Below, piece after piece: positions 2,879 through 41,920 of a stretch of DNA of 42,603 bases (position 1 is its first letter; the number at the start of each line of letters is the position of its first letter). Origin of the DNA: a virus; IMG/VR virus record IMGVR_UViG_3300030106_001778, positions 1 through 42,603 of that record. One strand, given 5' to 3'. Position numbers and translations under genes: made by a program. The notes beneath the pieces were generated by a model. The model had not been told where the DNA came from, did no database searches, and was given only the letters and a program-made list of their open reading frames with translations.

Positions 2879-3146
2879 CAAACTGTTGGTTAGTCTTTCT
2901 TTTTGCCTTTTCTAAAAATTTCTTAATCATAAATAGTTCTGCTTTAACCTCTCTTAGTTCGTTCTTGAGTGCAGCTATCTGTACAATGTAACCGTTTGCA
3001 CCATATATTTGCCAACATGTTACGTTCCACCCGTCTATCGAATTTTCTATCTGCCTTTCTAGTTCCTTTATATATTTGTCATCAGTATCTACTACATCCA
3101 AACTGCCTACGTATTTATATTTATGCCCCGTTACCTGCATTCCCAT
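2862..3146 (-). CDS. Unknown protein with C-terminal coiled coil
   Basis: A 94-aa protein if it starts at the ATG at 3144-3146, which has an AAGGAA ribosome-binding site; a longer form starting at 3209 (115 aa) would overlap Coq4 by 89 bp and has only a weak site. The N-terminal part is beta-like (TGHKYKYVGSLDVVDTDDKY). The C-terminal half is Glu/Lys/Leu rich with heptad spacing (LKNELREVKAELFMIKKFL), predicting a coiled coil. No family is recognised. It lies between Coq4 and the exonuclease, overlapping both, so it is co-translated with them. Confidence 0.65.
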   Translation of the reverse strand: MGMQVTGHKYKYVGSLDVVDTDDKYIKELERQIENSIDGWNVTCWQIYGANGYIVQIAALKNELREVKAELFMIKKFLEKAKRKTNQQFDEDCK

Positions 3147-3900
3147 GATAGTGGTTCCTTGCTTTATTGTATATTGGTCCAACTTCTGACCAGTATTTTG
3201 GTTTATCATCTAGTAATAATTCTTTTTTAACCTGTTGTAAATCAACATTTAAATACTGTTCCCAGTCAACGTCTATCAACCGCGGTGCGCGTTTCCCGCG
3301 CCACCAAGACTCAGCCACGAGCCTACAAAACGTGATTATCGGTGCATGCTTCATGGCCTTGAGCACACCTATGCCAGGCACATACTTAGACGGACGGAAT
3401 GTATTATAACTACAGTTCAGCAGCCCTATAAACAAGATGGTAGCGTAAGAGTCACGCCATTCTTTGGTCAGGTCAAAAGTTAAAACGCACACCTCGCCGG
3501 CCGGAGTCGTATCATAGCCATTTAAAAAATGTATCAGGTCGTGTTGCATCGTCGTTTCTTTAAAAAACTTACCGAGCTTACTGCTTTTCTTTGCTCCAGG
3601 ATATTCTACAGAGAACACATCTACAGCGCCGTCAGATTCTCTTAACCACGTTTGGAACTCAGCACCAAATGTGCCTGGCTCAAAGTTACCTGTTCTAATT
3701 CTATCAATCAAAGCGGTTTCTCTTTCTAATACTTTCTTACCCAGCTGTGTGTTTTTATAGTCTCTATAACTTTTCTTAAAATCTTTATTGTCAAGAGCCA
3801 TTATAAATTTAAAGATTACATCTAACGAAGTTTCGTTAAAGAAATCCATACGGAACCCGTAGGTCCAAAAAAGTTTTAACTTTATCCAAAAATTTTTCAT
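3121..3900 (-). CDS. coq4: Coq4 family protein (ubiquinone biosynthesis)
   Basis: A 259-aa protein containing the Coq4 signature HDxxHx11E: H120-D121-LI-H124 and E136 in HDLIHFLNGYDTTPAGE, which binds Zn2+. The C-terminal third (AESWWRGKRAPRLIDVDWEQ) fits the conserved end of alphaproteobacterial Coq4. Length is close to the family norm. In cells, Coq4 organises the coenzyme Q synthesis complex and takes part in modification of the ring C1 position on the inner membrane surface. Here it would be an auxiliary metabolic gene supporting quinone supply or respiration during infection; that is inference. The key residues are present, so it may be active. It is coupled (ATGA) to the upstream unknown gene. 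Confidence 0.88.
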   Translation of the reverse strand: MKNFWIKLKLFWTYGFRMDFFNETSLDVIFKFIMALDNKDFKKSYRDYKNTQLGKKVLERETALIDRIRTGNFEPGTFGAEFQTWLRESDGAVDVFSVEYPGAKKSSKLGKFFKETTMQHDLIHFLNGYDTTPAGEVCVLTFDLTKEWRDSYATILFIGLLNCSYNTFRPSKYVPGIGVLKAMKHAPIITFCRLVAESWWRGKRAPRLIDVDWEQYLNVDLQQVKKELLLDDKPKYWSEVGPIYNKARNHYHGNAGNGA

Positions 3901-7192: not shown

Positions 7193-7319
7193 TCATCCTC
7201 CTCTTTTGTAATTTTATCAGGTCTTCCAGTTTTTTGCTCCACATATCTTTCATTTCTTTATCTTTAGTTAGCTTCATAGCTGCCATTAGATTAGCTATTC
7301 TTTTCTTGTCTTTGTTCAT
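7155..7319 (-). CDS. Tiny basic helical protein (54 aa)
   Basis: This is a short gene read directly from the sequence: the ATG at 7317-7319 is preceded by AAGGAGG six bases upstream, one of the strongest ribosome-binding sites in the window, and the TAG is at 7155-7157. The product begins MNKDKKRIANLMAAMKLTKD and continues with a Lys/Met-rich helix (EMKDMWSKKLEDLIKLQK). It overlaps the end of the oxygenase gene by 29 bp and the start of the membrane protein gene by 38 bp. Function unknown. Confidence 0.6.
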   Translation of the reverse strand: MNKDKKRIANLMAAMKLTKDKEMKDMWSKKLEDLIKLQKRRMNERFQPKSKLVH

Positions 7320-7830
7320 CTCCCACCTCCTTATAATGTAAAAATAATTGTGATTGCCAAGACCCTTTAAACACAGGTCTACTGTGCTCTTCTTTTGCTC
7401 CTTGATATATCAAAGCATCTCCCGCTTCCAAATAAAACGGTTCTCGTTTTAAAAAAATAGGCCAAGGTTCATGAGCACCATAACCCATGCAAATCGTTGC
7501 AGACCACTCGTATTCAGGTTGATCTACGTGAACAGGTAATTTACATTCTGGACCATAAATCCTGTAATAAGATGTTACAGGAACTAAATCAAAACCAACC
7601 GTTTTTGAAATTTTTTCCCGGCAAAATAACAATAAACTATCAGCAAGTGCATCACCATACCTTAAATCAATACAATGCCCAATTGTTGGTTCGTAAACTG
7701 TTACACGTTGACCATCAGCGGCTTTAGGTCTGTTTGTTTTTGCCATAATTAAACTATACTCGCGAAATAATTCTAGAATATCTTTTCCAATAAAATCTCT
7801 AATTATATGGCTTCGCCTGACTTCATCCAT
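7291..7830 (-). CDS. 2OG-Fe(II) oxygenase-like protein
   Basis: With the start at 7830 the protein has 179 aa. The iron ligands are H101-V-D103 (LPVHVDQPE) and H149 (AKEEHSRPVF), with strands WSATICMGY, WPIFL, GDALIYQG and a terminal WQSQLFLHY, a pattern I recognise from phage 2OG oxygenases. The expected Arg for 2-oxoglutarate is not obvious at its usual place after the last His; R151 is very close to it. Substrate unknown. An ATG at 7884 is possible (197 aa) but lacks a ribosome-binding site and would overlap the zinc-finger gene by 82 bp; the 7830 start has AAGGAGG at a rather long 12-base spacing. Confidence 0.75.
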   Translation of the reverse strand: MDEVRRSHIIRDFIGKDILELFREYSLIMAKTNRPKAADGQRVTVYEPTIGHCIDLRYGDALADSLLLFCREKISKTVGFDLVPVTSYYRIYGPECKLPVHVDQPEYEWSATICMGYGAHEPWPIFLKREPFYLEAGDALIYQGAKEEHSRPVFKGSWQSQLFLHYKEVGDEQRQEKNS

Positions 7831-8006
7831 TTTGGTTCTATGCCTCCTTCTATATTTTCCCTGCATTGATTTGCTGGTAACCATACAAACATTTGATTAT
7901 CGCATTGAGCGCAGTCGTACGGTTTACCTTGCACTACAATATAGCCGTTGCCCTTACAACGAGGGCAAATAGCTTTAACCTTTTGATCGCCCGTTAGATC
8001 TACCAT
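7803..8006 (-). CDS. Small zinc-ribbon protein (67 aa)
   Basis: Two CxxC pairs (CPRC at 14-17, CAQC at 32-35) separated by a Gly-rich hairpin (KGNGYIVVQGKPYD) make a zinc ribbon similar to the DnaJ Cys-rich repeat. The protein has no other domain. It overlaps the upstream ribbon-helix-helix gene by 32 bp and the oxygenase by 28 bp, placing it second in the operon driven by the 8.2-kb promoter. A nucleic-acid or protein adaptor role is likely by family; the target is unknown. Confidence 0.7.
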   Translation of the reverse strand: MVDLTGDQKVKAICPRCKGNGYIVVQGKPYDCAQCDNQMFVWLPANQCRENIEGGIEPKWMKSGEAI

Positions 8007-14629: not shown

Positions 14630-15388
14630 TTAAAACGGAACGTCTTCTTTCGAAGCCGCGGGCTCGTCTTTATCATGCTTTACTTCAACATTACGCATTG
14701 ATGAAGCAAATGCTTTTGCAGCCCCATACAGATTTTCATCTTGTACTGGACCAATCATAGCTACATTCCAACCAAACCAAGTTCCCTTTTCGTTTGATTG
14801 TTGTACTGTGCTAAGATTATACACGTGACTATAGGAAGCCGGTGTGAATAAACCATTCTTGCCTTTCAGCTTTAACGTATTCATCATCGAGTTCCAGGTT
14901 CTACTAACCTTCAACTGTGTAGCTTTCATAGTTATCAAAGCTTGTTGTAGGTCTTCTGTCATAACAAAGTATGACGCCGTGTTTTCAAGATAATTGCCGT
15001 TAGACAATCTATCTTTTCCTAGTCCGTCTCTAGTAGCTTCTTTTATGATGCCACTTTCTACGGAGTGGATAGCAACGGGAGCACCTGTGCCCTCGCCACG
15101 ATCCTGCCACTCAACATATTCCCGCTTGTAAAAGCATGGAACTACATTGATTCCCTTCTCGCCGTCATATGCCTGCTTAGTCACGGTATTGAATATCATA
15201 CCTGGCTCAGCACCTTCGACATACTTCGAATCCCGTTTGTTTGTCTCGGGTGACAATTGGCTAAGCACACGTAAGAATGGCATAGCAAAATCGTCTGTAC
15301 TCATTTGCTCCATTCCACCCATGCTGTCAGCTTCAAACATACCAGCCAAAGCTATGTTTGAATCTTTTTTCTTCGCTACTTGGTTCAT
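14630..15388 (-). CDS. Putative single-stranded DNA-binding protein
   Basis: A 252-aa protein. The core is beta-rich with conserved-looking blocks (FLRVLSQLSPETNK, NVVPCFYKREYVEW, SYFVMTEDLQQALITM, WFGWNVAMIG). The C-terminus is acidic and ends KEDVPF, like the partner-binding tip (DxPF) of SSB proteins. I know this type as a presumed ssDNA-binding protein in marine phages. It would protect ssDNA and recruit the helicase and polymerase. It has a strong AAGGAGG ribosome-binding site and lies directly upstream of the primase block. The family assignment is by pattern; no OB-fold proof can be given by eye. Confidence 0.65.
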   Translation of the reverse strand: MNQVAKKKDSNIALAGMFEADSMGGMEQMSTDDFAMPFLRVLSQLSPETNKRDSKYVEGAEPGMIFNTVTKQAYDGEKGINVVPCFYKREYVEWQDRGEGTGAPVAIHSVESGIIKEATRDGLGKDRLSNGNYLENTASYFVMTEDLQQALITMKATQLKVSRTWNSMMNTLKLKGKNGLFTPASYSHVYNLSTVQQSNEKGTWFGWNVAMIGPVQDENLYGAAKAFASSMRNVEVKHDKDEPAASKEDVPF

Positions 15389-15405
15389 GTTTCCTCCTTA
15401 TTGTT

Positions 15406-15960
15406 TCACGATTTCCGGCCTATTTTTGTTTGATCTTTAATAAAAATATTAAAGAACTGCGAGGGCATGTCGAGGCCGGCCTCAACACGCTCTCTATAGA
15501 GCGCTTTCAAAGTCATAGGTTCTACCTTTGACCTCTGCGAAGGTTCATAACCTTCTCGCGCTGCAAGGTCAAGCAACTGCTCAGCCTTGTTATCTTCGCC
15601 TCTACCAAACTGTACAGAAACCTCATTCTTAATGATGTCCCCCAGTTGGTTTTCTCGAAGCCAGTTGTAAGCTGATTCCATCTCATCTTTTTTAATGGTG
15701 CAGTTATATGACTTTCTTACGTCAACAGAACTGCCATCAGCTAATTTCAAAGATGATATACCCTGCTCTGCCAGCATATTAGGTATTATCTCTGAACTAA
15801 TCTTGTCTGCTTTTTCTCTCTTCTTTTTTATCTGCTCTTCTAATTCTGCAATCTCTTCTTCGTATGTCTGTAGTTCCCTGCAATAACTTGCAAGAGTATC
15901 TACATCTGCTTTTTCTATGACCTGTTGCTGGTCCTTTTCTAATTCCTCAATATTAATCAT
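15406..15960 (-). CDS. Unknown coiled-coil protein of the replication operon
   Basis: A 184-aa protein. Residues 1-60 form a Glu/Lys-rich coiled coil (QTYEEEIAELEEQIKKKREK). The C-terminal part has KVEPMTLKALYRERVEAGLD followed by MPSQFFNIFI, a conserved end I have seen in phage replication-region proteins without a named function. Size and coiled coil recall Gam-type nuclease inhibitors, but I cannot support that call. It starts with a 4-bp overlap with the upstream gene and ends 17 bases before the SSB-like gene. Confidence 0.65.
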   Translation of the reverse strand: MINIEELEKDQQQVIEKADVDTLASYCRELQTYEEEIAELEEQIKKKREKADKISSEIIPNMLAEQGISSLKLADGSSVDVRKSYNCTIKKDEMESAYNWLRENQLGDIIKNEVSVQFGRGEDNKAEQLLDLAAREGYEPSQRSKVEPMTLKALYRERVEAGLDMPSQFFNIFIKDQTKIGRKS

Positions 15961-37594: not shown

Positions 37595-39012
37595 TTTTTA
37601 TCCAGTTCCTTTATTGCTTCTATGATTAACGGTATAAGTTTGTCATAGTGAACTGTTTTGTAATCTTCCGATAATTTATGTAATTGAACAATAGGTGCCT
37701 CTGTTACGACTTCAGGTAAAACTTTTTCTACTTCTTGCGCACTGACTCCAACCTCTTTGTTATCTTTAAATGCAACAGGGTCTATCTCTTTTGCTTTATC
37801 ATTCCATGTGTAATAATAACCAGATAGTTCTTTTAATTTATCTAGTGCATTTTCTATTTTACCATCAAAGTTTTTAAGACGAGAGTCACTCGAATAAGCG
37901 GTAATGTTACCGGTCGCAGTAAGCGAAGAGCAAGAAATACTACTTCCTGGTGAGAACGATCCTGTTGGACCTGGAGGTCCGTTTGGTCCTGGAGGTCCGT
38001 TTGGTCCTGGCGGACCTGCACCACCTGGAGGTCCAGCTGGTCCTGTTAATACCGCGTTAGCAATAGTTGCTTTTTTAATTGCACCTGCAGACGTATCATA
38101 AACTGCAATTACGTCATCACTTGCAATACTAGTTTCTGTTGGGTGTGCTGACACTACGTCACCTGCTATGGTTCCTGTTACCATTATTCCATTTTGTACA
38201 GTAGAAAGTCTATGAGCATCTTGATACTTGAAATCCATAGTTCCGTTAAAATCTGCCGCTATATAATTGTGACTACCATTGGCGCTATTAATTCTTAGTG
38301 TGTCTGATTGTATTCTTAAAAAGTCTGCTGTACTAACAATTTTATCTATTTTATCAGTACCAGAATCATCGTGAAATATTTCTAAATCATTTCCTGTTCC
38401 AAATCTTGCTTTGACATCGTCATTAAAATCAACTCCGTTAGCACCACCAACTGCTGTAGCACTTGTAGCAATAGTATCAAGTTTAGTTCCATCAACACTA
38501 AGGTCACGTCCATCTACAGTTTCTGTGCCGGCCATTGTAATGTTGCCTGACATCTGTCCACCAGCTTTTGGTAAAGCTGCATTCGCTGTATTTGTAGTGG
38601 TTGTTAGGACACCATCTCTTGTTGCAATATCAACTCCGTCGACCGTACCGCCAACAGTTATATTATTTCCAATATCTACATTGTTAGAGCCATCCTCTAC
38701 AACAGCTTTTGATGCAGGTAGTGTACAAAATACATCTTTTGTACCTGCTCCAAAGTTAACTAAACTATCTGAGTTTGAGCTTGATAAAACTGTAGTTCTA
38801 GAAAGTGTGTCTGGTGTAGCATCAGTTACAGTACCTATACCAACTTCAAAATTACCTGTGCCAGCTGCTATGATACAATAAAAAGTTTCGTTGCCATTAC
38901 CAATACCAGTTACAAATGTCTCAAAGCCAGAACCTGCGCCATTTAAATTTATAGTGCCTGTACCAGTGCTGGTAGTCGTTTCTTTGACTCTATCGTTTAG
39001 GACAAAAGCCAT
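37585..39012 (-). CDS. Long tail fibre with collagen run and S74 chaperone
   Basis: A 475-aa protein. The N-terminal attachment domain is MAFVLNDRVKETTTSTGTGT...FYCIIAAGTGNFEVG. The middle is beta-helical (GTKLDTIATSATAVGG). Then a collagen-like run (GPPGPNGPPGPNGPPGPTG) precedes the C-terminal S74 chaperone, AYSSDSRLKNF with S375-D376, and the family end LIPLIIEAIKELDKK. It folds as a trimer with self-cleavage. It is the first fibre gene reached by transcription from the right, so it may be the main fibre. Confidence 0.85.
   Translation of the reverse strand: MAFVLNDRVKETTTSTGTGTINLNGAGSGFETFVTGIGNGNETFYCIIAAGTGNFEVGIGTVTDATPDTLSRTTVLSSSNSDSLVNFGAGTKDVFCTLPASKAVVEDGSNNVDIGNNITVGGTVDGVDIATRDGVLTTTTNTANAALPKAGGQMSGNITMAGTETVDGRDLSVDGTKLDTIATSATAVGGANGVDFNDDVKARFGTGNDLEIFHDDSGTDKIDKIVSTADFLRIQSDTLRINSANGSHNYIAADFNGTMDFKYQDAHRLSTVQNGIMVTGTIAGDVVSAHPTETSIASDDVIAVYDTSAGAIKKATIANAVLTGPAGPPGGAGPPGPNGPPGPNGPPGPTGSFSPGSSISCSSLTATGNITAYSSDSRLKNFDGKIENALDKLKELSGYYYTWNDKAKEIDPVAFKDNKEVGVSAQEVEKVLPEVVTEAPIVQLHKLSEDYKTVHYDKLIPLIIEAIKELDKKCR
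37967..38002 (-). repeat. Two 18-bp tandem repeats coding Gly-Pro units
   Basis: Two units of GG(A/T)CCTGGAGGTCCGTTT differ at a single base and are followed by a partial third. They code the collagen-like shaft of the long fibre. Such repeats are prone to length change. Confidence 0.85.
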
Positions 39013-39481: not shown

Positions 39482-40180
39482 TTATGGATTAGCACTAGGT
39501 ATCGGAATTCTAATAGCTCCGTCCCTGTACTCATCCCTTCGTTTCTTACCCATTTGTTCTTGTGCAAGTGCTGTTATAGATTCTCTATATGATTGCTCAT
39601 ACACTTGTTGGTTTTGTGGAGCTTTCAAGAACTTAAATGCTTCACATAAGCAGGCATACAATAATGTTCTAGGAGCATTCACACTAACCCAGTTTTCTGC
39701 ATTAGAAGAGGATAACCCCGTAGGTAATTTTGTAAACCCTACCTCAAATTTATATATTGCATTAGGAGTCGGCGCAAGAACTAATGTCCCTTGGTCCCAC
39801 ATACCGTAGTATTTTGGCACAGAAGCAGACCCAGTTTCTGGTGTATCGTAGTACTCATTCATAAAATCAGCGTCTACTTTATTTAATGGATATCTCTTTT
39901 TTGTGCCTGAATCGAGGTACAAAGTAACATATCTGACAGTAGTAAAGTCTGATAATCTAGGTGTTTCTTCATTAGCATTTTGACCTGGTAACGGAACCCA
40001 TCTGTTGTCTGCTGCTGTAGCACCGTTGGCTACAAACTTATAACAATCCAAATCAACGTCTTTAAATATACGTATTTCGGCGTGTTCAATAAAATCATTA
40101 CAAATAGCATCTGTTAAAACAGCACTATCTGTTTCTGTGTAATCCCTGATCTGTTGTAATAGTTCTGTATATGTTGTCAT
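39482..40180 (-). CDS. Head-tail adaptor protein
   Basis: A 232-aa protein: TYTELLQQIRDYTETDSAVL then ICNDFIEHAEIRIFKDVDLD, ending in a helical part (LLYACLCEAFKFLKAPQNQQ). This helix-beta-helix layout matches phage neck adaptors of podovirus-like marine phages (SU10-type/P22 gp4-like). It would bind below the portal ring and join head to nozzle. It overlaps the stopper gene by 4 bp. Confidence 0.72.
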   Translation of the reverse strand: MTTYTELLQQIRDYTETDSAVLTDAICNDFIEHAEIRIFKDVDLDCYKFVANGATAADNRWVPLPGQNANEETPRLSDFTTVRYVTLYLDSGTKKRYPLNKVDADFMNEYYDTPETGSASVPKYYGMWDQGTLVLAPTPNAIYKFEVGFTKLPTGLSSSNAENWVSVNAPRTLLYACLCEAFKFLKAPQNQQVYEQSYRESITALAQEQMGKKRRDEYRDGAIRIPIPSANP

Positions 40181-41184
40181 GCTGTTAAACTCACTGGTCC
40201 TACGGAAGCTTCTCTACCCCCAAATCTTCTTATACCACCACTTTCAAAGTATTTAAAGCCCTTACCTCCGGCAGCCTCAAACTGATTTACATAAGTTAAT
40301 CTGTCATCAATTAATAATTTATTAGCTCCACCATAAGGACCTTTATTAAAATTTGTAGCGTAATTTCTTGCTGCAGGAGCTCTGGCTCCTGTCAAATTAG
40401 CATCTATCCATGCATTTTTTTGGTTGGTTATGCTGGTGCCTGTAGTGGTGGACAATATTTCATAAGAACCGTTTTTGGCAATAACCAAATCTATAAGCGC
40501 GTCTGCTTCGGCTCTTTTACCTAAGTTTTGAAAGTATGACCCCGCAGAAGCAGCTAATGCAGCTAGTTCTATTTCAGGTGTTAAATTATACCAATCACCT
40601 CCTGAGTCTAGAAGACCATTGTTGGTCGCATAAGTAGCTACTGCTTGATAATATTCTGTAAGCACACCATCCATATCAACATAAACAGTAGTGGTTCCAG
40701 GACTACAATTAGCAGTTAGCCAATCTGTTAGAATATCATTTGGTGTAAAAGAAAAATTATCATCATCTATTTTTGTTACAATGTGGCCAGGTGCATAATT
40801 AATATCATGGTCTTGTATGTGTGAAACTTCTGGGTAAGCAGGGAAATTAGACTCCACTTGTCTAAATCTAACTGTTTGTCCGGTAGTAAAACCATGGCCA
40901 GGGTCATTTACGTTTACAACTGTAGAATCTCTAACGCCTGCACTTAATGCTGTTGAACTTAGCATGTGAGCAACAGGTGGTTCTGTTCTTGCTGGTCTTG
41001 CGTTTTGTAGTCCTTGTGCGTCGCCCCTAAATCTTTTTGGAAAAAGTTGTGGGTGTTTTGCTTCAAACTCACTTTTGTGTACAAAAGAACCATTCCATTC
41101 TTTGACCATTTCTCTATATGGAAAAGCCATTCCGCTTCTGTCAGAGATTGCTTTTGATTTTTTACCTGTAGAAAAATTAGACAT
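40177..41184 (-). CDS. Stopper-like virion protein with HAD/5'-nucleotidase-like domain
   Basis: A 335-aa protein. Residues 1-70 (MSNFSTGKKSKAISDRSGMA...HPQLFPKRFRGD) form a known virion module of marine phages; 80-155 are beta repeats. Residues 160-312 form a HAD hydrolase like the NT5C deoxynucleotidase: motif I VYVDMDGVL (D170, D172), motif II ILSTTTG (S/T 245-246), motif III K256, motif IV LLIDDRLTYV (D293-D294), then EAAGGKGFKY. All four motifs look intact. So a phosphatase for nucleotides may be built into a neck protein. Inserted moron domain, or recruitment for a structural role, are both open. Confidence 0.75.
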   Translation of the reverse strand: MSNFSTGKKSKAISDRSGMAFPYREMVKEWNGSFVHKSEFEAKHPQLFPKRFRGDAQGLQNARPARTEPPVAHMLSSTALSAGVRDSTVVNVNDPGHGFTTGQTVRFRQVESNFPAYPEVSHIQDHDINYAPGHIVTKIDDDNFSFTPNDILTDWLTANCSPGTTTVYVDMDGVLTEYYQAVATYATNNGLLDSGGDWYNLTPEIELAALAASAGSYFQNLGKRAEADALIDLVIAKNGSYEILSTTTGTSITNQKNAWIDANLTGARAPAARNYATNFNKGPYGGANKLLIDDRLTYVNQFEAAGGKGFKYFESGGIRRFGGREASVGPVSLTA

Positions 41185-41920
41185 TTGGATAATACGCCTG
41201 TGGAGTTATGTATGTACTAGAAGACGATCCGTCTTCTACAAGAGCTCTATTTAATTCATCTTCATAATATAGTTTCATTGCTTGTGTTAATTCTGGCTTC
41301 TCTTTTTGTGACAAATAGAAGGCTAGGCCAGAAGTCATGCAAGGTACAAACCTGTAAGGTACGTCTGATTGGTTTTGGTATGCTCCTGCATCTTGTATTC
41401 TTTTTATGTAATATAATGAAACATTGTTTGATGCCGCAGTAGTATCAGGTGTTGGGTACAAAGTTACTACAGTTTTATCTATAAATCTTTGTACATAATA
41501 TTGAGTTGGTTGAGACTTGTTAAGTTTGTTTGACAGTCCAGAATATGTAGATCTATTTATCTTTGTAAGAGCTGAGTCCACTTGAGATGTGGTAGTTCTA
41601 CCAGTTCTATATGTTGCTTCTAAAACATCGTGAATACCGTAAACACCGTTCGGTATAGAAGTTGCGCTAGTGCCATCAGTAGAGCTTCTAAAAAAAGTAT
41701 ACTCCGCCTGTCCCTCAACTAGATCAATATCCAAGTTATCTATTTGCCAATAGTGTAAACCTCTATTAGCCCATTCTTGAAACATGATATTTAGAGAGCG
41801 CCTTGCAGATTTTAATTGATAACCACTAACAGCATGAATACCTATTCTGTCATAGGCTTCTTGTATAATGTCATCAATATCAAAGCTACTTTCAAAAGTA
41901 GTTGTTCCCGATGTTGCCAT
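41177..41920 (-). CDS. Head-tail connector protein (gp4/gp11-like adaptor)
   Basis: A 247-aa protein. DIDDIIQEAYDRIGIHAVSG and ARRSLNIMFQEWANRGLHYW are typical of adaptor proteins in podovirus-like genomes. The C-terminal part VPYRFVPCMTSGLAFYLSQK followed by PELTQAMKLYYEDELNRAL is a long helix pair. It likely forms the 12-mer ring under the portal. Overlap of 8 bp with the stopper-like gene. No enzyme motif. Confidence 0.78.
   Translation of the reverse strand: MATSGTTTFESSFDIDDIIQEAYDRIGIHAVSGYQLKSARRSLNIMFQEWANRGLHYWQIDNLDIDLVEGQAEYTFFRSSTDGTSATSIPNGVYGIHDVLEATYRTGRTTTSQVDSALTKINRSTYSGLSNKLNKSQPTQYYVQRFIDKTVVTLYPTPDTTAASNNVSLYYIKRIQDAGAYQNQSDVPYRFVPCMTSGLAFYLSQKEKPELTQAMKLYYEDELNRALVEDGSSSSTYITPQAYYPNV

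Follow-up and report, generated by a model that had tools for sequence, protein, structure and literature searches.

The enzymes known from phage virions mostly hydrolyse cell walls or polysaccharides or act as esterases, as polymerases or as modifiers of host proteins, and a protein of the head-tail junction would be an unusual place for a nucleotide phosphatase. The nearest published parallel that we found, by analogy, is the neck of the 936 lactococcal phages, in which proteins of the neck passage structure carry carbohydrate-binding modules, and in which one neck module bound the host (PMC6669499). As may also hold for the fusion protein described here, accessory domains are carried there on a structural protein and have been proposed to aid host contact (PMC6669499). 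However, the lactococcal modules are binders in a long-tailed phage, whereas the domain considered here is that of an enzyme, and the two are likened by architecture rather than by sequence. Open-access papers were searched for a nucleotidase in the neck protein of a phage, and none was found to describe one; nor does the main text of two papers on HTVC023P-type pelagiphages mention a nucleotidase.

The enzyme itself has described counterparts. Stand-alone phage 5'(3')-deoxyribonucleotidases, such as MM5_037 of Morganella phage vB_Mm5 and ORF172 of Xanthomonas phage XacN1, share with our domain the HAD core, motifs I-IV and a similar length; however, they are separate small genes, whereas here the domain lies inside a structural-block protein and lacks the C-terminal segment that those enzymes carry beyond the last strand. 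The remainder of the protein resembles the phrog_28581 proteins of HTVC023P-type podophages (HTVC023P gp55, HTVC027P gp65 and that of 023Pt_psg01), with which it shares an N-terminal module and gene position and, in most relatives, also a beta-domain. In contrast, the proteins of these isolates (146-290 aa) have no HAD domain and carry other extra sequence or none.

Results

The fusion gene and its neighbours

The window, that is, the whole 42,603-nucleotide stretch of viral DNA that was analysed, is part of a 46.5-kb IMG/VR record. The nearest relatives of its DNA polymerase and tail proteins are those of 023Pt_psg01, Pelagibacter phages HTVC027P and HTVC023P, and phage DSL-LC04, and on this basis the phage of the window is related to HTVC023P-type podophages. 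The clade that bears the fusion consists of marine short-tailed phages, kin of the Pelagibacter phages. The features discussed below are as follows (residue numbers are those of the 335-aa protein).

41177..41920, minus strand: upstream neighbour, phrog_12985; homologue in 91 of 94 fused loci
40177..41184, minus strand: whole fusion gene, 335 aa, an open reading frame with an ATG start; 17 full-length relatives
40969..41184, minus strand: N-terminal module, residues 1-72 (AISDRSG..FPY.EM..EWNG..VH..E.E.K.P), phrog_28581
40744..40968, minus strand: first part of the C-terminal beta-domain, residues 73-147 (E1-FCCH-like / endosialidase beta-domain-like)
40237..40737, minus strand: inserted HAD domain with short linkers, residues 150-316 (PHROG 2643, hhalign, AlphaFold2, Foldseek)
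40666..40677, minus strand: HAD motif I, D170-M-D172-G173; both Asp and the Gly invariant in 56 distinct sequences
40447..40452, minus strand: HAD motif II, S245-T246; S or T only in relatives
40342..40344, minus strand: HAD motif III, K281; invariant, aligned to the Lys of stand-alone enzymes
40303..40308, minus strand: HAD motif IV, D293-D294 (LIDDR); invariant
40180..40236, minus strand: last beta-domain strand, residues 317-335 (GIRRFGGREASVGPVSLTA), resumed past the HAD domain; matches the unfused C-terminus
39482..40180, minus strand: downstream neighbour, SU10-type tail adaptor (PF24175, E 5e-26); homologue in 92 of 94 fused loci

The reading frame overlaps both of its neighbours by a few bases. 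It lies between the capsid genes and the SU10-type adaptor, a position kept in HTVC027P and other relatives; homologues of both flanking genes are present in fused and unfused relatives alike, and the gene of phage CRP-902 at the position of the upstream neighbour is annotated as a tail adaptor. The gene is thus encoded in the head/tail block beside adaptor genes, as is characteristic of head-tail junction proteins, and from this gene order the fusion protein is probably located at the head-tail junction. Just outside the window, where the major capsid protein would be expected, lies a 300-residue ORF (L281:2719-3621), which from gene order and length we read as that protein.

In one HTVC027P-type relative (L181:1002-2492), the corresponding protein continues in frame into the SU10 adaptor (PF24175, residues 287-483), either as a natural fusion or through a frame error; if no sequencing error is involved, this read-through fits physical contact of the HTVC027P-type protein with the adaptor. 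Separately, the product of positions 37585-39012 (minus strand) of the window resembles a tail fibre and has a collagen-like stretch of GPP and, at its C-terminus, an S74 chaperone domain.

A HAD domain of deoxyribonucleotidase kind

The sequence-only reading of this gene had placed a HAD/5'-nucleotidase-like domain at residues 160-312, in one polypeptide with a head/tail-module protein. This was borne out by a PHROGs search of the 335-aa protein, in which residues 164-312 matched phrog_2643 (5'-3' deoxyribonucleotidase, E 7.7e-13), the phage-family profile that marks a 5'(3')-deoxyribonucleotidase (NT5C / PHROG 2643), and residues 1-147 matched phrog_28581, a family of uncharacterised function (E 6.5e-40). 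Pfam and NCBIfam searches gave nothing usable, the only Pfam match being a sub-threshold one to E1_FCCH in mid-protein. The HAD part did not reach the curated cut-off of Pfam NT5C (PF06941), and it is therefore filed as NT5C-like rather than as a member of that family. A PDB profile search with the HAD alignment returned chance matches only, and hhalign comparison of the domain with six stand-alone phage deoxyribonucleotidases gave a probability of 99 and an E value of 4.7e-18, with the catalytic motifs aligned.

All four HAD motifs that had been read from the sequence are present, including DMDGV (residues 170-174) and the DD pair, and together they supply the DxD of motif I, the S/T of motif II, the Lys of motif III and the acidic pair of motif IV that define the superfamily. 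Across 56 distinct fused sequences D170, D172, K281, D293, D294 and R295 did not vary, and position 245 was always S or T. Invariance of the catalytic residues argues for activity of the HAD part, which is apparently a catalytically competent phosphatase.

Structure prediction had been proposed as a check, with failure to yield a HAD fold counting against the domain. AlphaFold2, for which 32 proteins of the window and of IMG/VR were aligned, returned a HAD fold (mean pLDDT 81.5 for the fusion; 74 to 96 for most of the HAD domain). In Foldseek searches against the PDB, the model matched HAD enzymes with probability 1.00, including 3bwv (deoxyribonucleotidase-like), as well as the mammalian 5'(3')-deoxyribonucleotidases 2jao, 4mwo and 1mh9; the predicted fold is the Rossmann-like one of the superfamily. 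Judged by motifs and model, the domain is real and complete and of the 5'(3')-deoxyribonucleotidase kind. Two BFVD matches (339 and 310 aa, 27-30% identity) exceed a lone HAD domain in length and could be further fusions.

Site of insertion in the beta-domain

In unfused relatives, '..DDNTYTFTVATDTATTGN' runs nearly directly into 'GGGGRAYAGPTTITP', so that the chain passes from ..YTF to GGG..AGPVT.. without a HAD domain, whereas the fusion protein has the HAD domain after '..DDDNFSFTPND' and only then continues with 'GGIRRFGGREASVGPVSLTA'. Residues 317-335 match the C-terminus of the unfused proteins (GGG..A.AGPVTITP). In the AlphaFold2 model of the fusion, a strand at residues 143-146 precedes the HAD domain and a strand at residues 327-330 follows it; the corresponding strands of the unfused model (136-140 and 159-161) are near each other in sequence. 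By alignment and model, the HAD domain thus sits in a loop of a C-terminal beta-domain, directly ahead of its last strand; most relatives have this beta-domain uninterrupted. A simple C-terminal fusion was rejected, because the beta-domain strand resumes after the HAD domain.

The unfused beta-domain resembled, with low TM-scores in Foldseek, a domain of the endosialidase NF/K1F tailspike and the E1 FCCH domain. The likeness is one of fold only (Foldseek and the weak Pfam E1_FCCH match), and, unlike the fusion protein, these domains hold no HAD insert. Relatives of the HTVC027P type carry unrelated extra sequence in the same beta-domain, ending in GGGLNCLAGPV. Among 113 complete genes, picked by a pattern in the N-terminal module, length ranged from about 108 to 335 residues, and a HAD domain was found in only one, plus L018, which was re-found by the scan. 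By this survey of length and content, the HAD clade is a small minority and the C-terminal half is a variable region. In CRP-902-type relatives (L243, L253, L261 and L270), repeated GVAGTGAxG-like units replace the beta-domain in the C-terminal half.

Distribution, origin and selection

The IMG/VR collection was scanned twice, the second time with the HAD domain alone, the two scans overlapping partly in contigs. The first scan recovered the full architecture at 17 loci (61-97% identity) and also more than 60 HAD-less relatives, thus supplying the insertion-lacking relatives with which comparison had been suggested. The HAD-only scan gave 111 relatives; in the best 80 of these, the N-terminal module was present in 78, and the contigs of the other two begin inside the gene. 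Every examined HAD locus with an intact N-side was therefore fused (78/78). The fusion was not found in any annotated phage of the collection.

The sequence-only reading had itself named the possibility that the HAD part is a separate gene joined to its neighbour by sequence error. This explanation did not survive the comparison: the same uninterrupted frame recurs in dozens of independent contigs and the beta-domain resumes after the HAD domain, so that artificial joining by sequencing or assembly is now extremely improbable.

A midpoint-rooted tree built from the shared part united the fused sequences in one clade (support 100/100) when the long-branch isolates HTVC023P and 023Pt_psg01 were left out; HTVC023P, a HAD-less very long branch, had initially been placed inside that clade. 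A single acquisition of the HAD domain by the fused clade is the simplest reading of these sequences, with an ancient presence and later loss as the less simple alternative. In seven fused records phrog_2643 was not found as a stand-alone enzyme, and 13 unfused records, several of which are fragments, had no copy in any form; the enzyme thus probably arrived with the insertion and serves no general need of the group.

Median pairwise dN/dS among the 56 distinct sequences was 0.18 for the N-terminal module, 0.34 for the first part of the beta-domain and 0.20 for the HAD domain; because these are simple Nei-Gojobori estimates at high dS, only the similarity of the values across the parts is meaningful. 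The HAD part is under purifying selection.

The N-terminal module

The first 70 residues had been likened to a virion stopper. This assignment was not upheld: among the matches listed in Pfam, PHROG, PDB-sequence and Foldseek searches there was no stopper, and a stopper identity thus found no support in sequence or fold, the model of this module being of low confidence (about 55 for residues 41-70). No solved relative of the module was found by sequence in the PDB. In two more distant spring-water phages, the module is a stand-alone protein of about 80 residues with a CxxC and one further Cys, encoded directly or two genes before the tail adaptor (L288:2971-3213 and L289:2959-3204); these Cys residues are also kept in DSL-LC04. 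The sequences suggest a small zinc-ribbon-like ancestor, which in the marine lineage may have shed its cysteines and acquired the beta-domain.

Discussion

Our preferred explanation, to which we give a probability of about 0.5, is that the gene encodes a tail-junction protein of the virion on which a catalytically competent phosphatase is displayed as a module, acting at adsorption or entry. The product would be a structural protein at the head-tail junction of a marine podophage similar to the HTVC023P type, anchored beside the tail adaptors by its N-terminal module, with the C-terminal beta-domain as an exposed display platform. In the fused clade, a loop of this platform would hold a complete 5'(3')-deoxyribonucleotidase-like HAD phosphatase, kept catalytically competent; riding on the virion near the tail, the enzyme could hydrolyse a phosphomonoester, either dNMPs or a phosphate group of the cell surface, during adsorption or entry. 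Presence of the protein in virions is put forward on gene order, virion proteomics or structures for fused phages not having been found in the papers searched, and surface exposure, activity, substrate and timing are likewise inferred. The platform is suggested by the variation in extra sequence and length of the beta-domain across the family and by its likeness to the endosialidase tailspike domain. That the insertion lies in a variable region of what is probably a junction protein speaks for display on the particle, and a HAD domain inserted in such an exposed platform is most likely virion-carried. A broader proposal, in which a working nucleotide or phosphomonoester phosphatase sits on the tail junction and different clades fill the beta-domain loop with different modules, is offered more tentatively.

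We favour a virion-carried phosphatase, at roughly even odds, over an enzyme that works inside the cell or a domain that only binds. The HAD domain could be a late intracellular enzyme that is tied to a structural protein and dephosphorylates dNMPs, for example from degraded host DNA, before or during assembly, its presence in the virion being incidental. Since the stand-alone phage relatives are separate small proteins with a deoxyribonucleotidase annotation, encoded outside the head/tail block where annotation shows, the ancestral activity was probably intracellular. However, insertion into a structural protein ties copy number to structure and is an odd route to a cytosolic enzyme, and the absence of phrog_2643 from related unfused records also speaks against such a role. 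Release of a separate HAD product by internal initiation was rejected for want of a fitting start: the in-frame ATG/GTG codons at residues 74, 110, 171 and 174 are not preceded by a Shine-Dalgarno-like sequence, nor is any of them suitably placed ahead of the HAD domain. This is weak evidence, because the gene's own start also lacks such a sequence. On balance, an intracellular role seems unlikely.

Less likely still is that the HAD fold acts by binding a phosphorylated group of the cell surface, with catalysis secondary or lost. The carbohydrate-binding modules of the 936 lactococcal neck passage structure (PMC6669499) and the unrelated extra sequence in the same domain of relatives are in its favour, yet a pure binder would be expected to have lost some catalytic residues, and all are invariant in the 56 sequences.

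If the virion-carried phosphatase is real, it would be an enzyme class not described before on phage necks, with a role at the cell surface or in the entry of DNA. Activity on the virion would suggest that infection of abundant marine bacteria involves phosphate or nucleotide chemistry at their surface. The beta-domain of a widespread marine podophage protein would also be marked as a site of module exchange.

Elsewhere in the window, positions 3121-3900 (minus strand) match Pfam Coq4, of ubiquinone biosynthesis, with E 7.9e-8, above the curated cut-off, which is unusual for a phage. Residues 74-191 of the product of positions 7291-7884 (minus strand) match phrog_2954, annotated as ferrochelatase (E 2.7e-21); because a Pfam match is absent, this name may mislead. 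At positions 14630-15960 (minus strand), an adjacent gene pair matches the Pam3 phage gp34-like and gp33-like Pfam families.
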